The translations under genes were made by a program, and so were the position numbers. A stretch of DNA of 64,000 nucleotides from Gemmatimonadaceae bacterium (GTDB lineage Bacteria > Gemmatimonadota > Gemmatimonadetes > Gemmatimonadales > Gemmatimonadaceae), in assembly GCA_020851035.1 (NCBI GenBank), contig JADZDM010000021.1:310001-374000 (forward strand), read 5' to 3'. Positions 4,574 through 52,799 of this stretch are shown here, one piece after another; the stretch's first letter is position 1; each line of letters begins with the position of its first letter. The notes beneath the pieces are model-generated. The model was not told where the DNA came from. It saw nothing but the letters and a program-made list of their open reading frames with translations, and searched no databases.

Positions 4574-4707
4574 ATTTCAAGGGGACGGGGACCGTGAGCG
4601 GAGGGGGGCCAGCCACGCGCAGGATCCGCGTCCGCGTGCACGATCCCCGTCCCCTTGAAGCCGCTATCTCCGTCCCCTTGAACTCAAGATCTCCGTCCCC
4701 TTGAACT
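4574..4707. repeat. GTCCCCTTGAAC-type repeat cluster, class C
   Basis: One inverted copy (TTTCAAGGGGACGGGGACC, 4574-4593) is followed by three direct copies of (G)ATC(C/T)CCGTCCCCTTGAA at about 4642, 4666 and 4689. The inverted copy and the first direct copy could fold into a long hairpin. The same unit forms a seven-copy array at 52621-52789. It lies between two minus-strand genes and could act as a transcript-end structure. Confidence 0.8.
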
Positions 4708-4720
4708 TTGCGACGCCCGA

Positions 4721-7960: not shown

Positions 7961-8582
7961 CTGTTGCGCATGGTCGCGCACCCTAGCTGCGCGATGCTGT
8001 CGTCCGGTTGAGTGTCGCGGCATGGCGGATAAAGTATCCATGCAGCACTGATCCCAGAACGTGAGACCATCACTCGGTCAGCGACTGGAAATGTTACGAC
8101 CCAAACGGCGGACTGTGCAAGAGTGCGCGCCATGCACGGGAACGTACATGCGCAGCGTGTCGTGCGTTGCGCGTTGTGACGACGTGGTGCACTGGCCGTG
8201 TGTTGCGTGCGCGTACTCGCGCGGCCGTGCCACTGGTGCCTGTACCACCCAAGGCAGCGAGCGAATTGCAGTCCCAGATTCTGAGCCCACGAGACGACGA
8301 CGCGATGCCTGCATTGAATCTAGTGGTGTGCGCAGCCTGGCGGCGTGACGATCACCCGCGAGGACGCCGACGGCCGCACCACCGCACCACCGCAACACCG
8401 CGGCGCCGCGTCACCACGCCGTCACGAACACGCCACGCGACCGGACACCGCGCGGCCCCCGGCAGACGGCGCAAATGACGACCCGGGCATGTCCGCCGGG
8501 CCAGCCCCACGCATCTCGCGCCCGCCCGGTCTCCGCCGTCGGAGCGCGCGCGGGTGCCGTGGCTCGATCGTCGACACGCACA

Positions 8583-8595: not shown

Positions 8596-11502
8596 GTGAC
8601 GACGCCCAATCTCCCTGGTGATCCTCCGCCGGAGAGCGCGGTCCGGCTCGCCGGGATCATCGCCGGCCGGTACGAGATCCAGCGGCAGATCGGCGAGGGG
8701 GGCATGGCCACCGTCTACCTCGCGCGCGACCTCAACCGCGACACCCTCGTCGCCCTCAAGGCCCCCCGGCCCGAGTTGGTGCTCCAGCTCGGTGGCGAAC
8801 GGTTCCTGCGCGAGATCCAGATCACCACGACGCTGCAGCACCCGCACATCGTGCCGGTGCTCGATGCCGGGAGTGACAACGGCGTCCCCTTCTACATCAT
8901 GCCGTACATCCAGGGCGAGACCCTCGAGCAGCGGCTGAAGCGCACCGGGCCGCTGCCGGTGCAGGAGGCGATCGCCCTCGCCGGTGACGTGCTCGACGGG
9001 CTCATGTACGCCCACCGTCTCGGCTTCGTGCACCGGGACGTGAAGCCGTCGAACGTCATGCTCTCCAACGGCCATGCGCAGCTCGCCGACTTCGGCATCG
9101 CCAAGGCGGTCGAGCGCACCGACAACCGGAAGCTCACCGAGTCGGGGTTCGCCCTCGGCACGGCCGAATACATGAGCCCCGAGCAGGCCGCAGGCGAGGC
9201 GCACCTCGATGGGCGCAGTGACCTCTACAGCCTGGGCTGCGTGATGTACGAGATGTGCGTCGGGGCACCGCCGTTCACCGCGCCCACCGCACGCGGCGTC
9301 ATGGCGCGGCACTTCGTGGACCCGGTGCCAAGCATCCGCACCGTGCGCGACACGGTGCCGGTGAAACTCGAGGCGGCGATCTTCACGGCGCTGGCCAAGA
9401 CGCCGGTGGACCGCTTCGCCGATGCCGAGGCGTTCAGGGCCGCACTGAAGGACCCGACGCTGCACGACGCCGTCGCCGTCACGGCCGGCCCGGCCGCGGT
9501 CCGGCGCGCACGCACCTGGAAGGCGGCCGTCATCGCCGGCACGATGGTGGCGGGCTTCTCCGCGTTCACGGTCTGGCGCACGGCCGCGTCGCCCGGCGGG
9601 TCGCTCGATGCCACCCGCGTGATGGTCTATCCCTTCGTGGCCGCCGAGGGGCTGGGCGGGGCGCGTTCGATGGGGGAAGACGTGGCGACGATCATCGGCA
9701 ACGCACTCGACGCTGCTGAGCCGCTGCGCTGGATCGACGGCTGGTCCGTCATGGACGAAGCCTCGCGCGCCGACATCCGCAGCTTCACACATGACAAGGC
9801 GCGCCGGCTGGCGCGCACGCGTCGCTGCGCAACCTTCGTGGAAGGCCGACTCACCCGGCACGGCGCCGACTCCGTGTCCGTGACGCTGTCGCTCTGGGAT
9901 GCGCGGGCCGACACGCTGCTCTCCACCGAGTCGGCCACCGGCGCAGCCGCCGACCCCTGGCGCCAGGGACTGCGCGCCGTGAGCCGCATCCTGCCGAAGC
10001 TGATCACCGGCTCCGACCCCCGGTTCGAGGCGGAGTGGAAGGATCGCCGGCCCGGTGCGGTCGCGAACTTCCTCCTCGGCGAGGCGGCCTACCGCCGTGC
10101 GCGCATGCCCGACGCGCTCGCACACTTCCGCAAGGCCGTCGGACTCGACTCCACCTTCGCACTCGCGGCGCTGCGCGGCGCGCAGGCAGCCAGCTGGGCA
10201 CACCGCAGCACCGAGGCGGCGTCGATGGTGCGCCTCGCCCTCGCGCAGCCGCTCCCGCCACGCTATCGCAACTTCGCACTCGGTGTCTCCGCCTACATCG
10301 ACGGCTGGGCCGATTCCGCCGCCACCTACCTCTCGTCGGCCATCGCGGCGGACAGCGAGATGACGGTGGCCTGGATGCAACTCGGTGAGACGTACGTCCA
10401 CCTGCTTCCGCTCCGCGGGAATCCCGACTCGCTGGCCGAGCGCGCCTTCGCCATGGCGCAACAGCGCGACTCGACGTCGGCGGCGATCCTGTTCCACCCG
10501 CTGCAGCACCGGCTCGTCACCGGCGACACGGCGGGCGCCACGCCGCTCATGGCTCGCTTCCTCGCCGCGCAACCGGACAGTGAGCTGCTGGGATCGCTGC
10601 TGATCGTGGACGCGTGCGTCCGTCGCGGCCCTGCGGGCGTGAACTGGACCGAGCGGGCACGGCGCCAGCCACTCGCGACCCTCGCCGCCGGCCGTGATCT
10701 GCTCGCCAGCGCGCGACCGGGCTGCGCGAAGGCGGCCTTCGACGCCATCCTCGCGGTGGACACGGGCAGCACGCCCGAGGCCGATCCGCGACGCTTTGCG
10801 GCCCTCATCGGCGTCCAGGCACTGGCGCTGCAGCGCAATGCACCCGACGCAGCCTCGAGCGCAATCGATGCGTTCGTCACCAGGTGGGGCGCCGGGAAGT
10901 CCATCTATCTCCTCGTCGCCCCGTACGCGCCGGCACTGCTGCCGCGCGCCGAGGCCATCGCGCAGGAAGACGAGGCGCAGTACGGCGCGGCGTATGCGCA
11001 GTACCCGTACCCGCGCCGGCTCTGGGAGCTCGGCGCGCTGGAGCTCGCGCGGGGACGGCCCGACATCGCCGCGCGCATCGCCACCGCGCTGCTGACGCGT
11101 GCGTTCCCCGAGGATTCGGCGTATGCGCGCGTGCGGGGAGCGTCACTGACCGCACTCGTGCAACTGGCCCGGGGCGACACGTCCGGAGCCGAGTCGGCGC
11201 TGAGGTCGCTGCTGGCGCGCAGCGCGCCCGCGTCGGAGCTGCAGTGGGAGGAACTCGCACCGCTCGGCGCGGAACGGCTGGCGCTGTCGCGGCTGCTTCT
11301 CGCGCGCAAGGCGTACGCGGAGGCGATCGACGTCGCGAGCGTGTTCGACTCGCGTGCGTCACTCATCTTCGCGCTCTACCTGCCGGCGAGCCTCGAGCTC
11401 CGGGCGGCGGCGGCGAAGTCGCTTGGCAATTCGATCTCCGAGTCGCATTATCGGAATCGACTGGCTGCGCTGCGCAATCCGCCGCAGGGCACCGGCTCGT
11501 AG
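8596..11502 (+). CDS. Transmembrane Ser/Thr protein kinase with extracytoplasmic TPR-like region
   Basis: The protein is about 968 residues. The GTG at 8596 is preferred because the 14 codons before it (open back to 8554) look non-coding. The cytoplasmic Hanks-type kinase has the glycine loop IGEGGMATVY (32-41), ATP Lys in VALK (about 55), HRDVKPSN (146-153), DFG (165-167) and GTAEYMSPEQA, so all catalytic residues are present. A juxtamembrane Ala/Arg segment leads to one membrane helix (about 308-328, AAVIAGTMVAGFSAF). The rest carries an adenylate-cyclase-associated-type beta/alpha sensor region, then helical TPR-like repeats (AVGLDSTFALAALRGAQAA). This layout is common in Gemmatimonadota and Acidobacteriota. 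The next three genes (basic repeat protein and two caspase-like peptidases) run in the same direction with short gaps, so they may be co-regulated or be substrates. Confidence 0.9.
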   Translation: MTTPNLPGDPPPESAVRLAGIIAGRYEIQRQIGEGGMATVYLARDLNRDTLVALKAPRPELVLQLGGERFLREIQITTTLQHPHIVPVLDAGSDNGVPFYIMPYIQGETLEQRLKRTGPLPVQEAIALAGDVLDGLMYAHRLGFVHRDVKPSNVMLSNGHAQLADFGIAKAVERTDNRKLTESGFALGTAEYMSPEQAAGEAHLDGRSDLYSLGCVMYEMCVGAPPFTAPTARGVMARHFVDPVPSIRTVRDTVPVKLEAAIFTALAKTPVDRFADAEAFRAALKDPTLHDAVAVTAGPAAVRRARTWKAAVIAGTMVAGFSAFTVWRTAASPGGSLDATRVMVYPFVAAEGLGGARSMGEDVATIIGNALDAAEPLRWIDGWSVMDEASRADIRSFTHDKARRLARTRRCATFVEGRLTRHGADSVSVTLSLWDARADTLLSTESATGAAADPWRQGLRAVSRILPKLITGSDPRFEAEWKDRRPGAVANFLLGEAAYRRARMPDALAHFRKAVGLDSTFALAALRGAQAASWAHRSTEAASMVRLALAQPLPPRYRNFALGVSAYIDGWADSAATYLSSAIAADSEMTVAWMQLGETYVHLLPLRGNPDSLAERAFAMAQQRDSTSAAILFHPLQHRLVTGDTAGATPLMARFLAAQPDSELLGSLLIVDACVRRGPAGVNWTERARRQPLATLAAGRDLLASARPGCAKAAFDAILAVDTGSTPEADPRRFAALIGVQALALQRNAPDAASSAIDAFVTRWGAGKSIYLLVAPYAPALLPRAEAIAQEDEAQYGAAYAQYPYPRRLWELGALELARGRPDIAARIATALLTRAFPEDSAYARVRGASLTALVQLARGDTSGAESALRSLLARSAPASELQWEELAPLGAERLALSRLLLARKAYAEAIDVASVFDSRASLIFALYLPASLELRAAAAKSLGNSISESHYRNRLAALRNPPQGTGS

Positions 11503-11530
11503 TTCCCTCTCCTCCCCCGAGGGTTTTCGC

Positions 11531-11959
11531 ATGGCGATCGCACGCGCAGGCGCACCAACCAGCAAGGGGCGTGGTCGGGACACCACCGCCGCACCCGCAC
11601 CGAACAAGGGGGCCGGTCGGGACACCACCGCCGCACCCGCGCCGAACAAGGGACGCGGTCGGGACACCACCGCCGCACCCGCACCGAACAAGGGACGCGG
11701 TCGGGACACCACTGCCGCACCCGCACCGAACAAGGGACGCGGTCGGGACACCACCGCCGCACCCGCGCCGAACAAGGGGCGCGGTCGGGACACCACCGCC
11801 GCACCCGCACCGAACAAGGGGGCCGGTCGGGACACCACCGCCGCACCCGCGCCGAACAAGGGGGCCGGTCGCGGCGGCGCGACGGCGCCTGCGAAGAAGG
11901 CGCCTGCCCGGAAGGCCGCCGCGAAGACGGTCCCGAAGCAGGCCGGCACTCGGAAGTAG
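11531..11959 (+). CDS. Small basic protein made of 14-residue repeats (histone H1/AlgP-like)
   Basis: The protein is 142 residues from the ATG at 11531. After MAIARAGAPTSKG come seven near-perfect copies of GRDTTAAPAPNKG(R/A), then a Lys/Ala-rich tail (KKAPARKAAAKTVPKQAG). There is no signal peptide or hydrophobic stretch. The combination of Ala, Pro, Lys, Arg and Thr in a disordered repeat is like bacterial histone H1-like and AlgP-type nucleoid proteins. The paired Thr residues in each repeat would be potential phosphorylation sites for the upstream kinase, though that is only inference. The repeats are tandem DNA duplications, so copy number may vary between strains. The gene is 28 bases after the kinase and 46 bases before the first caspase. 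Confidence 0.7.
   Translation: MAIARAGAPTSKGRGRDTTAAPAPNKGAGRDTTAAPAPNKGRGRDTTAAPAPNKGRGRDTTAAPAPNKGRGRDTTAAPAPNKGRGRDTTAAPAPNKGAGRDTTAAPAPNKGAGRGGATAPAKKAPARKAAAKTVPKQAGTRK
11577..11870 (+). repeat. Seven 42-bp tandem repeats inside the basic protein gene
   Basis: The unit starts GGGACACCACCGCCGCACCC and ends AAGGG(A/G)CGCGGTC or AAGGGGGCCGGTC. Seven units run without interruption, differing only at a few synonymous sites and at one Arg/Ala codon. Being a multiple of three, copy changes keep the frame. Confidence 0.95.
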
Positions 11960-12005
11960 CGGGAGCGCGCGACCGTCATCACCCACAACCCGGTACACGC
12001 AGACG

Positions 12006-15000
12006 ATGCCAACTGAACCATCCGGCAGCGTGCGCCGCGCGTTGCTGGTCGGGATCAACGCCTACTCGAACCGGCCCCTCGGCGGCTGCATCGCCGACGC
12101 CGAGCTGGTGGCGACCGTGCTGCAGGAGCGCTTCGCCTTCGAGCGGGCGAACGTCACGCTGCTCCGCGATCGCGAGGCCTCGCGGGAGGGCCTGCTCGCC
12201 GCCCTCGACACCCTCATCGACGCCACGCGCGACGGTGACACGGCGTTCGTCTACTACGCCGGCCACGGCGCGCTCGCCCCGAGCCCAGACCTGAGCGAGG
12301 CCAGTGGCTCGGAGAGCACGTTCTGCGTCTGCGAGGATCCGCGGGAGGACATCTACGACGACGAGTTCGGGGCACGGCTCACAGCCCTCGCCCGCCGCAC
12401 GAGGCACACCGTCGTCGTCGCCGACTGCTGTCACTCGGGCACGATCGCACGCGATGCCGGCCGCGGCACGGCCCGGAGCACCACACCCGTCCCGCCCGGA
12501 CCGCGCGCAGCGAAGGACTATGGCCGCCACGCCGCGACCGACGAGTCCGCGCGCGCCGCCGCGCGGTACGTGCTGATCGCCGGCTCGCGCGACGACGAGG
12601 AATCGAAGGAGGTGGATGTCGCGGGCGACGGCAGCATCACCCACGGCGCCCTCACCTGGGCACTCACGCGTGAACTGATGGCCTGCGCGCCGGGCACCAC
12701 CTGGCGTGACGTGTTCCAGCGCGTCGCCGCCGCCGTCACCGGGAACAACCCGGCGCAGCATCCGCAGCTCGAGGGCGATGCGGATCTGGAGATCTTCGGG
12801 GTACGCACATCCCCCGGTCTGCCGTCCGTCCCTGTGCTGGAGCGCAGCACCCGGCAGGTGCTGCTCGGCGGCGGTGCCATCCACGGGCTCACGGTCGGGT
12901 CGCAGCACCGGATCTTCCCGCAGGGCACCAGGGCCGGTGACGCGGTCGAGCCGCTCGGCACGGTCGAGGTGACGCGCGTGACCGGCATCACGGCGCGTGC
13001 CCGCATCACCGGCGAGGCAGCCGACGGCGCCATCGTGGCCGGCACCCGCGCCGCCCCGATGTCGGCCACCACCGTCGCCCAGGTGCTGGCGCTCACCAAC
13101 ACCGCCCCGGAGAGCCGGATGGCGGGCGGCGTCACACTCGAACTGCTGCGCAGCGACGACGGCAGGACCTTCACACCGGCGCGGGCCGATAGCAGGCGCG
13201 GCATGCCCGTGCTCGAGACCGGGGACAACTTCACGCTCCGGATCACCAGCACGCTGCAGGATGCCGTCTTCGTGAACCTGTTCGCGTTCAACCCCGAGGG
13301 GGGGATCGACGCGCTCACGCCAGGCGCCGCGAACCAGCTCGCCGCCGGCGGCACCTGGGACCTGTCCGAGGCGCTCGGTGGCGGCTTCGACGTGACATGG
13401 ACTGGCGACGATGCCGTGCAGTCGTTCAAGCTCTTCGCGTCGAAGGAGCAGGTGGACCTCTCGGGGCTCACGCGCCTCGACCATCCCACGCGCGGTGAGG
13501 CGTTCACGGGCCATGTCAGCGCCACTGACTGGACCACCGTCACGCTCACGACGACGCTCCGTCGCCGCATCGCGCTCGACGGCCGGGGAGCGGCCGATGT
13601 CGCGGGTGCCACGGTGACCGCACGCGGCATGACCGGCACCATCAGGGGCCTTGGCTCGGCACCGGACGTGGCCGCCATCACCGCGCCCGATTCGCCCCTG
13701 GCGCGGGCGCTGGCGACACATGGCGCCATCACGCAGCAGTCACTGGTGCTCACCGACGCCGCCGCCACGCCGGCCGCGCGCGACGGCACCGCCACGCCGC
13801 CGCAGCTCACGGTGCAGGTGCCCGACCCGGGCGAGGGCTACGCGCAAGTCGCGATGGTGACCGACGCCTCGGGCCTCGTCTCTTGGCACTTCGCGCCGGA
13901 CCGCGACGCGGCCCCGGCCACGCGCGATGGCAGCGTGCCCACGCTGCGCACCCGCACCTTCACCTTCGACGCCACGCCGTCCAGCGCGCCCGGTGACTCA
14001 CCCGCGAGTCGCGGCGTGCTGCTGGCACTCGGCCAGAAGCTGATCAACATCTACGCCTTCCCGCTCGGGAAGGCGGTCGTCGCCTACGCCGCCAGCACCG
14101 TCGGCGAGCGCATCGAGCTGGATCGCACGCCGTATCGCGTGCGCACCTTCCAGCCCACCGACTACGCGACCGGTGAGGCGCGGGAGTTCGCGACCGCCGA
14201 CTGGGAAGCCCTCGGCCGCGGCCGTGCCCTGCTGATGATCCATGGCACCAACAGCCGCACGCACACCGCGTTCGGCGGCCTGCCGCGCGAGTTCGTGGAG
14301 GCGATGCACGTGAAGTACGAGGGACGCGTGTTCGCCTTCGACCACCCCACGCTCACCCACTCGCCGCGGCAGAACGTCGAGACGCTGCTCTCGCTGATCC
14401 CCGATGGCCTGCAGCTCGACGTGGACATCATCTGCCACTCCCGCGGTGGCCTCGTCAGCCGCGTGCTGGCCGAGCGGCAGGACGCGCTCGACCTCGGCAC
14501 GCGGGGCATCCGCGTGGGCGCGATCGTGTTCGTCGGCTCGCCGAACGCCGGCACCGCGATGGCCGACGAGGCATGCATCGGCGACTTCCTCGACACCTGC
14601 ACCAACCTGCTGAACCTCGTGCCCACCAACGGCGTCACCGATGCCCTCGGGCTCGTGCTGACCGGCGTGAAGCTGGTGGCCACCGGGCTCTGGTCCGGGC
14701 TCGCGGGGCTGCGCGCCATGCAGCCGTCCGGCGACTTCGGCACCTGGCTCGCCGAGGGCACGCAGGGCCACGACACGAAGTACTACGCGCTCGCCTCCGA
14801 CTTCTCCAGCGCGCGGGGCGGTGCGCTCGGGGTGCTCGCCGAGAAACTCGCCGGTCGCGTGTTCAAGGGCGCACGCAACGACCTCGTGGTGCCCACCGAC
14901 GGCGTCTACGCTGCGAACGGCTCGCGCTTCTTCCCCATCGACGGGCAGGTCGTCTTCAGCGACGAGGATGGCGTGCCGCACACCGGGTTCTTCCAGTTCC

Positions 15001-15038
15001 CGCGCACGACGGCGCAGATCACCACCTGGCTGGCCTGA
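12006..15038 (+). CDS. Caspase-like peptidase (C14) fused to DUF4384-like and C-terminal lipase-like alpha/beta hydrolase domains
   Basis: The protein is 1010 residues from the ATG at 12006; the frame is open far upstream only because the GC-rich repeat gene has no stops in that phase. Domain 1 (about 5-275) is a caspase-like fold: ALLVGINAYSNRPLGGCIAD, catalytic His in YYAGHGA (His 87) and Cys in DCCHSGT (Cys 142). It is followed by a beta-domain (LLGGGAIHGLTVG...LGTVEVTRV) and a DUF4384-like domain (NFTLRITSTLQDAVFVNLFA). The last about 290 residues are an alpha/beta hydrolase: LLMIHGTNSRTHTAF (oxyanion hole), CHSRGGLVSR (Ser 812) and NDLVVPTDGVY. No signal peptide or membrane helix is evident. 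The paralogue at 15088 has the same first three parts but not the hydrolase. A protease-activated lipase is an attractive inference. Confidence 0.85.
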   Translation: MPTEPSGSVRRALLVGINAYSNRPLGGCIADAELVATVLQERFAFERANVTLLRDREASREGLLAALDTLIDATRDGDTAFVYYAGHGALAPSPDLSEASGSESTFCVCEDPREDIYDDEFGARLTALARRTRHTVVVADCCHSGTIARDAGRGTARSTTPVPPGPRAAKDYGRHAATDESARAAARYVLIAGSRDDEESKEVDVAGDGSITHGALTWALTRELMACAPGTTWRDVFQRVAAAVTGNNPAQHPQLEGDADLEIFGVRTSPGLPSVPVLERSTRQVLLGGGAIHGLTVGSQHRIFPQGTRAGDAVEPLGTVEVTRVTGITARARITGEAADGAIVAGTRAAPMSATTVAQVLALTNTAPESRMAGGVTLELLRSDDGRTFTPARADSRRGMPVLETGDNFTLRITSTLQDAVFVNLFAFNPEGGIDALTPGAANQLAAGGTWDLSEALGGGFDVTWTGDDAVQSFKLFASKEQVDLSGLTRLDHPTRGEAFTGHVSATDWTTVTLTTTLRRRIALDGRGAADVAGATVTARGMTGTIRGLGSAPDVAAITAPDSPLARALATHGAITQQSLVLTDAAATPAARDGTATPPQLTVQVPDPGEGYAQVAMVTDASGLVSWHFAPDRDAAPATRDGSVPTLRTRTFTFDATPSSAPGDSPASRGVLLALGQKLINIYAFPLGKAVVAYAASTVGERIELDRTPYRVRTFQPTDYATGEAREFATADWEALGRGRALLMIHGTNSRTHTAFGGLPREFVEAMHVKYEGRVFAFDHPTLTHSPRQNVETLLSLIPDGLQLDVDIICHSRGGLVSRVLAERQDALDLGTRGIRVGAIVFVGSPNAGTAMADEACIGDFLDTCTNLLNLVPTNGVTDALGLVLTGVKLVATGLWSGLAGLRAMQPSGDFGTWLAEGTQGHDTKYYALASDFSSARGGALGVLAEKLAGRVFKGARNDLVVPTDGVYAANGSRFFPIDGQVVFSDEDGVPHTGFFQFPRTTAQITTWLA

Positions 15039-15087
15039 CGGCCTCCTTCATCACGCGGCCGCCCGGTCGCCTGTCCCGCGGACGACC

Positions 15088-17028
15088 ATGCCACGCATCC
15101 ACGCGCTGCTGGTGGGCATCAACGAGTACACCGCGATCTCGCCGCTGCACGGCTGCGTGGCGGACATCGAGTCGGTCGAGGCGCTGCTGCGCTCGCGCAT
15201 CACGGCACCCGACGGGCTGGCACTGCAGGTGCTGCGCAACGCCGAGGCCACCCGCGCGGCGATCATCGCCGGCTTCACCGCGCACCTCGGCCAGGCGGGT
15301 CCGGGAGACATCGCCCTGTTCTATTTCTGTGGCCACGGCTCGGACGAGGCGAGCCCCGAGGAATGGCGCGGGCTCGCGATCGGCGGCAGGAACCAGACCA
15401 TCGTGCCGGTGGATGCACGCGTGGGTGACACGTTCGACATCGCCGACAAGGAACTCAGCGCGCTGATTCACGGGGTGGCCGCGACGGGTGCACAGGTGGT
15501 GGTCGTGCTCGACTCGTGCCACTCCGGCGACGCGACGCGCAGCGGCGGCGATGGCGCGGCGGTGGCGGTGGGCGACAACGGCGTGCCCCGGATGACGGCC
15601 GCCGCGACCGGTCGCACGCGCACGCTGGCCGACTACCACGAGGCGGCACGCACGCTCTACGATCCCGCGCTCCTCGCGTCGGGGCAGCAGCCCGCACCGG
15701 CCCACATCGCGATTGCGGCGTGCAGGGACGACCAGCTCGCGAAGGAGTTTCCCGTGAGTCCACCGCCCCGGCGGGGTGTGTTCACCATGGCGTTCGTCGA
15801 GGCGGTGACGGCGCTGGGACCGACGGCGACCTACGCCGACCTGATCACCGTGATCCGCGCGCGGGTCCGCGCGAACGCGAAGGACCAGGTGCCGAACATC
15901 ACCGTCTCCGGCACCGCCAGCGCCGCCACGCTGTTCCTGGGTGGCACCGCCGGACGCATCGAGCTCACGCTCGACCATGCGGACGGGACCTGGTGGCTGT
16001 CATCCGGCGCCATCGATGGCATCGTGGCGCCGGCGGGCGGTGCCGGTGGCACGACGATCGACATCCATCCGCGCGGCTCACTGGTGGGTGGACGGCCGAG
16101 CGTGTCGCCGCTCGCCACCGGCACGGTGACCAGCGTGGACGTGCACCGGTCCGCCATCACGGTGGGCGGCAGCGCCGCCGCACTCGACACCGGCACGCAG
16201 TACCACTGCACGATCAGCGCGATGACGCCGCCGGCGCTGCAGGTGACGGTCGCCGGTCCCGATACGGCCGGCGTCGCCGCCGTGCGCAGCGCGCTCACCG
16301 GCGCGGCGGGCCGGTCTGCGCTGGTGGAACGGGCCGATGGCCACCCGACCGCTGTGACGGTGCAGGTGGAGGGTGGAACGGCGCGCCTGCACGGCGCCGA
16401 CGGCACGCCCCTGTCGGGAGCCGAGGTCGCGGTGGATGCGACCGGGCTCGCGCGGCTCACCAACGCGTGCACACACCTCGCCCGCTGGCACGGCACGCGG
16501 GACCGCAGCGCACCCGGCTCGACATTCAACGACACCGTGCTGATCGAGGTGCTGCCGGCGCTGCCCGGCGAGACGACCCTGCGCGCCGGCCAGGCGCCGC
16601 TCGAGCCGGGCCTGGAAGGCATCGCGCTGTCCTACGCCGGCGATGCACCGCCGCGCGTGCAGTTCCGGCTGCGCAACACATCGAACGCCAGGCTGTACGT
16701 CGCGCTGTACGACCTCACGGACCGGTTCGCGTGTCGCGTGATGTTCGATGGCTGGCTGGCCGCCGGCGACATCAGGCAGGTGTACGCGAAGCCCACGACC
16801 ATCTCCATCCCCGAGGGCCGCGAGACCTGCGTCGACCTGCTCAAGCTCTTCGCCGCGAAGGACGACTTCCTGCCGCACACGCTCCTGCTGCCGGACCTCT
16901 TCGCGCCGGAGAGCAAGCCACCGAAGCCGGGCTCCACCCTCGCCACGCGCGCGCCGTTCACGCTGCGCGTGGCCACGGACACCTCCGTCTGGGGCACCAC
17001 GATGCTGCGCATGGTGACCCGCCGCTGA
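15088..17028 (+). CDS. Caspase family peptidase (C14) with DUF4384-like C-terminus
   Basis: The protein is 646 residues from the ATG at 15088, 49 bases after the caspase-lipase gene; a longer open frame upstream overlaps that gene and is not used. The N-terminal caspase-like domain has IHALLVGINEYTAISPLHGC, the His loop YFCGHGSDE (His 83) and the Cys loop LDSCHSGDA (Cys 144), so the catalytic dyad is intact. A middle beta-domain (WWLSSGAIDGI...TGTVTSVDVH) matches its neighbour in layout, and the end (VQFRLRNTSNARLYVALYDL) looks like a DUF4384 domain, which often accompanies bacterial caspases. No signal peptide is seen. The pair is most simply a duplication, after which one copy gained or lost the hydrolase domain. 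Bacterial caspase-like proteins act in controlled cell death or protein maturation; the target is unknown. Confidence 0.85.
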   Translation: MPRIHALLVGINEYTAISPLHGCVADIESVEALLRSRITAPDGLALQVLRNAEATRAAIIAGFTAHLGQAGPGDIALFYFCGHGSDEASPEEWRGLAIGGRNQTIVPVDARVGDTFDIADKELSALIHGVAATGAQVVVVLDSCHSGDATRSGGDGAAVAVGDNGVPRMTAAATGRTRTLADYHEAARTLYDPALLASGQQPAPAHIAIAACRDDQLAKEFPVSPPPRRGVFTMAFVEAVTALGPTATYADLITVIRARVRANAKDQVPNITVSGTASAATLFLGGTAGRIELTLDHADGTWWLSSGAIDGIVAPAGGAGGTTIDIHPRGSLVGGRPSVSPLATGTVTSVDVHRSAITVGGSAAALDTGTQYHCTISAMTPPALQVTVAGPDTAGVAAVRSALTGAAGRSALVERADGHPTAVTVQVEGGTARLHGADGTPLSGAEVAVDATGLARLTNACTHLARWHGTRDRSAPGSTFNDTVLIEVLPALPGETTLRAGQAPLEPGLEGIALSYAGDAPPRVQFRLRNTSNARLYVALYDLTDRFACRVMFDGWLAAGDIRQVYAKPTTISIPEGRETCVDLLKLFAAKDDFLPHTLLLPDLFAPESKPPKPGSTLATRAPFTLRVATDTSVWGTTMLRMVTRR

Positions 17029-17465: not shown

Positions 17466-17493
17466 ACGTCCTCGTTCGGTGATGGTTCAGTGT

Positions 17494-17711
17494 CTTGAAC
17501 TGCTTCAACGCAAAGACGCAAGGGGCGCAAAGAGTTCTGCGCGGTTCGCGCCTCTCTGCGGAGCACGGGGCGTCGAGAAGGCTGGGGGAACTGCAACTGC
17601 AACCGCAGTTCCCCTCATTTTCGATGTTCCTCGCGCGAGCGACGGTCGCCGCGCGCCAGCACCCTTTGCGTTCCTTGCGCCCTTTGCGTCTTTGCGTTGC
17701 AGCTGTTCAAG
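17494..17711. repeat. Nested palindromic element, class A
   Basis: The terminal inverted repeats start CTTGAACTGCTTCAACGC and end with the near-complement GCGTTGCAGCTGTTCAAG; the following AAAGACGCAAGGGGCGCAAAG is mirrored by CTTTGCGTCCTTGCGCC-like sequence. The inner pair is GGGGGAACTGC and CCGCAGTTCCCC. Same family as 3524-3752 and 40767-41002. Confidence 0.88.
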
Positions 17712-17729
17712 ATGCCGGTGCCACGACGA

Positions 17730-52614: not shown

Positions 52615-52789
52615 GTTCAAGATCCCCGTCCCCTCGAACTCGAGATCCCCGTCCCCTTGAACGCGAGATCCCCGGCCCGTTGAACTCAAGATCCCCGTCC
52701 CCTTGAACTCGAGATCCCCGTCCCCTTGAACTCAAGATCCCCGTCCCCTTGAACCGCTTTCCGTTCAAGATCCCCGTCCCCTTGAACGG
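52615..52789. repeat. Seven-copy 23-bp GATCCCCGTCCCCTTGAAC array, class C
   Basis: Unit starts are at 52621, 52644, 52667, 52690, 52713, 52736 and 52769, giving a period of 23 except for a 33-base last step. Copies differ at few positions (CTTGAACTCGA, CTTGAACTCAA). The array fills the space between two minus-strand genes, ending 11 bases from the stop of the ligase. Related copies lie at 4574-4707 and, more degenerate, at 62076-62128. Confidence 0.92.
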
Positions 52790-52799
52790 CCGGTGCGAC

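Follow-up and report, generated by a model that had tools for sequence, protein, structure and literature searches.

A putative kinase–repeat protein–metacaspase signalling module co-inherited in Gemmatimonadota

Comparison across the phylum indicates that a block of four genes in a Gemmatimonadaceae genome is a genuine, co-inherited signalling module of Gemmatimonadota, in which a transmembrane Ser/Thr kinase, a small tandem-repeat protein, and a metacaspase-type protease are encoded in that order. The block lies in a window of 64,000 nucleotides (contig 21, 310001-374000, of a 5-Mb genome), to which the window coordinates below refer. An initial annotation, made from the sequence alone, had noted four genes in one direction with gaps of 28, 46, and 49 nt and had recognised no described system in their order; the gaps and the shared direction (all on the + strand) were reproduced, and no earlier description of the kinase > repeat protein > caspase arrangement was found among open-licence papers.

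Gene order and co-inheritance across the phylum

The searches covered 148 family genomes and 395 genomes from the phylum, many of them draft assemblies, and gene neighbourhoods were read with a simple home-made gene caller. The order kinase, small tandem-repeat ORF, metacaspase-type protease was present in the window's genome (G000) and in eight more genomes from two families, specifically G003 (same genus), G100, G054, G137, G052, G072, and G395, together with G175 from the other family. For G003 and G072 we infer the order, because their contigs break within the repeats: the kinase contigs of both end there, and the caspase contig of G003 starts there. The module kinases share 43-56% identity with the window kinase and are similar over their whole length. 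When the kinase clade was located independently of the caspase, the caspase clade was found in 7/8 kinase-clade genomes versus 3/140 other genomes (p=3.5e-9), and the nine kinases and their nine caspases gave congruent trees (Mantel r=0.68, p=5e-5). Order, co-occurrence, and tree agreement thus lend strong comparative support to the single-operon idea; the annotated block holds together as a unit in that kinase, repeat protein, and caspase share order, direction, and co-inheritance across genera, and independent scattering of the genes, which would have made the block a coincidence, was not borne out. P0003 used alone as a query against the genome contigs recovered no relative.

Several genomes carry only part of the set. 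The kinase clade and small ORF are present and the caspase absent in G091; G031 and G398 have the caspase and neither of the other two. In G380 the kinase domain has been lost, and the caspase is accompanied by a small protein that has no repeats and a single GTGRDPGRPPPAPQ copy; kinase activity is therefore not indispensable. CHAT and nSTAND1 have been added in some module loci within the phylum.

The kinase, the caspases, and related systems

The kinase gene (8596..11502, + strand; alternative in-frame GTG at 8554) encodes 968 aa. As annotated, it combines a Ser/Thr kinase with a membrane span: the predicted cytoplasmic catalytic domain (residues 26-239; 8671..9312, + strand) matches Pfam Pkinase (E=2e-45), with K55, HRD D148, and DFG D166 invariant in the alignment, and is followed by a single hydrophobic segment, predicted from hydropathy to be transmembrane and aligned in orthologues (residues 309-327; 9520..9576, + strand). 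The predicted extracytoplasmic region (9583..11499, + strand) was modelled by AlphaFold as a TolB-N-like alpha/beta domain followed by a TPR solenoid (mean pLDDT 84), and its PDB matches were TPR proteins, among them the CadC periplasmic sensor (PDB 3ly8, E=1e-4), so that the proposal of the kinase as sensor is plausible. In both proteins one transmembrane segment separates an outer alpha/beta domain and TPR from the inner part, which is a DNA-binding domain in CadC and a kinase in the window protein. No NCBIfam cut-off was reached by the window kinase, and many PD-T4-6 models in PADLOC match it over the kinase domain only, as they would any Ser/Thr kinase.

Caspase 1 (12006..15038, + strand, 1010 aa) joins a metacaspase-like domain (12033..12773, + strand) to an alpha/beta hydrolase. 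Both caspases match Peptidase_C14 in Pfam (E=6e-23 and 5e-21), and the intact His-Cys dyads reported for them were confirmed: H87/C142 of caspase 1 is invariant in alignments of relatives, and caspase 2 (15088..17028, + strand, 646 aa) carries the same GHG and SCHSG motifs. The latter is restricted to the window’s genus, with an orthologue in G003 that is 50% identical, and genomes outside the genus have one caspase. The lipase-like domain of the initial annotation corresponds to DUF7379 in caspase 1 (14229..14744, + strand; Pfam E=6e-50), with Ser812 in HSRGG and Asp959 and His992 just past the Pfam match; this triad is conserved except in the caspase-hydrolase of G094 (L051), where the nucleophile Ser is replaced by Gly and the copy is probably inactive as a hydrolase. 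A stand-alone DUF7379 hydrolase gene adjoins a TCAD7-CHAT gene at L055:15886-19878, which suggests that DUF7379 repeatedly pairs with CHAT/caspase proteases. Just 3′ of the block, the window also contains an inverted repeat (17493-17712; two 41-nt arms with 90% complementarity and 138 nt between them) that may be a small mobile or REP-like element, and a 23-nt repeat, AGATCCCCGTCCCCTTGAACTCG, occurs in nine copies at two distant intergenic sites (4641-4709 and 52620-52790; 0 expected).

The top Foldseek matches of caspase 1 were metacaspases, and fold and sequence matches also included MALT1. Metacaspases and MALT1 cut after Arg/Lys. Invariant C28, D31, and D140 of caspase 1 occupy S1-pocket positions, corresponding to Cys92, Asp95, and Asp211 in the S1 pocket of T. 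brucei MCA2 (PMC4357240) and lining up with GCVND and DxCHSG in metacaspases of solved structure. Because these pocket residues match, Arg/Lys specificity, as described for orthocaspases (PMC6426788), is expected. Caspase 1 has the His-Cys dyad in a caspase p20 fold and the acidic S1 pocket for a basic P1 of the C14B metacaspases/orthocaspases, likenesses shared with the MALT1 paracaspase; it differs from both in its fusion to a beta-rich middle region and a lipase-like hydrolase, and in its genomic partners, the kinase and the repeat protein. Outside Gemmatimonadota, the caspase clade was found in Acidobacteria, Chloroflexi, cyanobacteria, Rhodothermaceae, and others; no repeat peptide or window-like kinase was found directly upstream at these loci, the low-GC ones being poorly gene-called, and several have CHAT instead. 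A group of secreted caspases in Gemmatimonadota, scoring below about 210 bits, was treated as a separate family and left out.

Among described systems, the EACC1-caspase two-gene conflict systems (Kaur et al., 2020, PMC7159879) similarly place a membrane component upstream of a protein with an N-terminal caspase, behind which the fused effector domains vary. However, the 5′ gene of the window block encodes a Hanks-type kinase rather than EACC1 and a small repeat protein is added; no EACC1 transmembrane protein is present at the 5′ end of the block, where the genes encode the kinase and a repeat protein without a family match, and the window caspases score 52 and 45 bits against the NCBIfam model caspase_w_EACC1, far below its cut-off of 140. 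The CapK/CapS kinase-substrate pair, found upstream of immune operons, likewise puts genes for a kinase and a small protein ahead of effectors, but there the kinase is anti-sigma-factor-like and CapS is a DNA-binding repressor of the STAS type (PMC13373217), whereas the window has a Hanks-type transmembrane kinase, and its low-complexity small protein matches nothing in Pfam or NCBIfam. Finally, sister loci include CHAT, nSTAND1, TCAD7, and alpha/beta hydrolases as partners, a likeness to the CHAT-caspase-STAND and ternary-complex (VMAP/TCAD) conflict loci; the kinase and repeat protein prefix, in contrast, was found in Gemmatimonadota only, within the sampling, and no MoxR AAA+ or vWA domain was found in the four block proteins, the ten neighbours being covered by the PADLOC scan only, with no match. 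The domains of these sister loci make a defence role possible, and the surroundings of the window give it no support: the defence-island context that the initial annotation had raised did not appear, with no PADLOC match among the ten proteins scanned around the block.

The small repeat protein and its Pro-tailed counterparts

The second gene of the block (11531..11959, + strand) encodes a protein of 142 aa and pI 12, and orthologous small ORFs occupy the same place in other module loci. Its array (11563..11871, + strand) comprises 7.4 copies of a 42-nt unit at 94% identity. Described initially as seven identical repeats, the copies are identical in all seven DTTAAPAPNK cores and vary in the residues before the core, which read GRGR or GAGR. 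The unit is unlike in every genome: GRGRDTTAAPAPNK in the window, KGRGGDAAPQAV in G003, GRGGDTPPPPAPP in G100, KRGDGDTPPPAPPP in G054, GGREGATAPPPA in G175, GGDRDPGAKPTS in G052, AEDRDPVAKPVI in G395, IDRDPLPKPVEA in G137, and GRGGDIAAPPGP in G072; the unit of G094, a genome that retains only part of the kinase, is 27 aa long. Differences between copies concentrate at codon position 3 (119/160, p=4e-26), so the repeat ORFs are coding, and ribosome-binding-like sequence precedes the repeat ORF in several loci. The protein is short, disordered-looking, under amino-acid-level selection, and fast-changing. The window ORF was missed by the gene caller used, and no family match was found in Pfam or NCBIfam for the small proteins tested. 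All ten repeat units contain Arg-x(0-2)-Asp/Glu and then Pro (joint shuffle probability 4e-6, for a motif picked post hoc); in many units the Arg is followed by Asp/Glu or Gly, and such sites may be poorly cut.

Small ORFs also come after related kinases that lack a caspase neighbour. These kinases, mostly from the sister family, are followed by an ORF of 60-150 aa, which usually has a C-terminal tail such as GGTPPPPPKWPPA, LPPPPKPPFH, or PPPPPPDWE. A Pro-rich small ORF lay ≤130 nt from 22/33 family kinases versus 33/289 other genes (p=1e-11), a comparison in which many of the background ORFs look like chance frames and some of the kinase loci do not represent independent species. Phylum-wide, TolB/TPR-type membrane kinases at L159-L169, L172, L174, and L182-L197 are paired with a small ORF bearing a PPPPPxW/F-like tail, independent of caspases. 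Tandem repeats, counted by hand, were present at 9/10 caspase-linked versus 2/20 unlinked loci (p=4e-5). A likely history is that a pair of kinase and Pro-tailed small protein came first and that, in one clade, a caspase joined later and the small protein was repeat-expanded; because the Arg-acid motif is mostly absent from the Pro-tailed proteins of unlinked kinases, their common origin with the repeat proteins is argued from position and composition. At several caspase-free kinase loci (L109:10481-10990, L182:2400-3692, L185:450-875, and L188:1-1509) the adjoining ORF looks secreted or lipoprotein-like and contains the motif C-x-x-C-[IT]-D-G-[EQ]; its product may be a further partner of the kinases.

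Proposed mechanism and alternatives

The mechanism favoured over the rival readings is one that we infer throughout and hold tentatively, at somewhat less than an even chance: a CadC-like extracytoplasmic sensor kinase would act on Arg-specific caspases by way of a small multivalent adaptor or pseudosubstrate, the Arg motifs serving as active-site ligands. The TPR region of the kinase would sense an envelope signal. The small protein would be the dedicated adaptor of the kinase, as a small Pro-tailed protein usually accompanies related kinases that lack a caspase, and would have turned multivalent in the caspase-linked clade. Its many Arg motifs may sit in caspase active sites or bring them together, whether the protein acts as pseudosubstrate, as substrate, or as a scaffold for activation, and would hold the proteases off until the kinase signals; freed caspase and hydrolase would then damage proteins and lipids of their own cell, in regulated death or a stress response. 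Counting against this reading are the loci that have only part of the set (G380, G091, G031, and G398), the many units that may be poorly cut, the scarcity of the Arg-acid motif in the Pro-tailed proteins of unlinked kinases, and the lack of a defence island around the window. A broader proposal is possible, if rather doubtful, namely that a phylum-wide, undescribed family of small, fast-evolving adaptors serves TPR-type sensor kinases, with the Arg-motif array of one clade directly holding or triggering metacaspases; this would be a bacterial relay from a kinase to a death protease, with the repeat number perhaps setting its threshold.

The multivalency, disorder-like composition, and Pro-rich tails of the small proteins would equally suit a proline/arginine adaptor that clusters kinase and proteases by induced proximity and is never seen by the caspase active site, as would the change of partners from locus to locus (CHAT, nSTAND1, DUF7379); such a pure scaffold would, however, leave the conserved Arg-acid placement and the Arg/Lys-type caspase pocket unrelated, and we consider it unlikely. 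Still less probable is that the small protein is a subunit or regulator of the kinase only, with the caspase co-transcribed merely so that both are made together. Small ORFs do follow related caspase-free kinases, and strong hairpins of 12-17 bp (fold z about -2 to -5), absent from the window, lie between the small ORF and the caspase in G100, G054, G052, and G380 (L050, L054, L059, and L081), so that caspase output may be set apart; at these loci more of the small protein than of the caspase may be made, and the hairpins could attenuate caspase expression. Against this role for the small protein, repeat expansion is found mainly in caspase-linked loci.

The roles originally suggested for the repeat protein, a phospho-Thr substrate or nucleic-acid-bound partner of the kinase, fared poorly. 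Phosphorylation of paired Thr residues on a cationic, possibly nucleic-acid-bound protein that then switches the caspases would fit the window, where the protein has seven TT pairs and its pI of 12 and the kinase is intact, but no other array has TT in its repeat unit, the unit of the same-genus orthologue in G003 has no Ser/Thr, and the whole G395 protein contains 0 Thr and 1 Ser. The pI spans 4.3-12 across orthologues, on which ground a conserved cationic DNA-binding role was rejected, and G380 lacks the kinase domain altogether. With paired Thr, Ser/Thr content, and charge all varying between orthologues, the repeat protein is unlikely to serve generally as a kinase substrate or to bind nucleic acids, and the phospho-Thr switch as a whole is improbable. 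That the genes are chance neighbours or the array non-coding, as might be argued from frames that stay open because 42 is a multiple of 3 and from the missed repeat ORF, is scarcely credible and, unless the loci are misassembled, already refuted by the codon-position bias, for which a non-coding repeat was rejected, and by the congruent kinase and caspase trees, with the ribosome-binding-like sequences and the same position in nine genomes also against it.

The small proteins point to a kinase-coupled family without a Pfam or NCBIfam model, whose ORFs ordinary gene callers would miss. How, and by what signal, bacterial caspases switch on is, to our knowledge, known for very few systems. The module joins a membrane sensor, a candidate linker, and a protease in one putative operon, and its natural variants, in which the kinase domain is lost, the repeats are lost, or the hydrolase is inactive, make the wiring testable.
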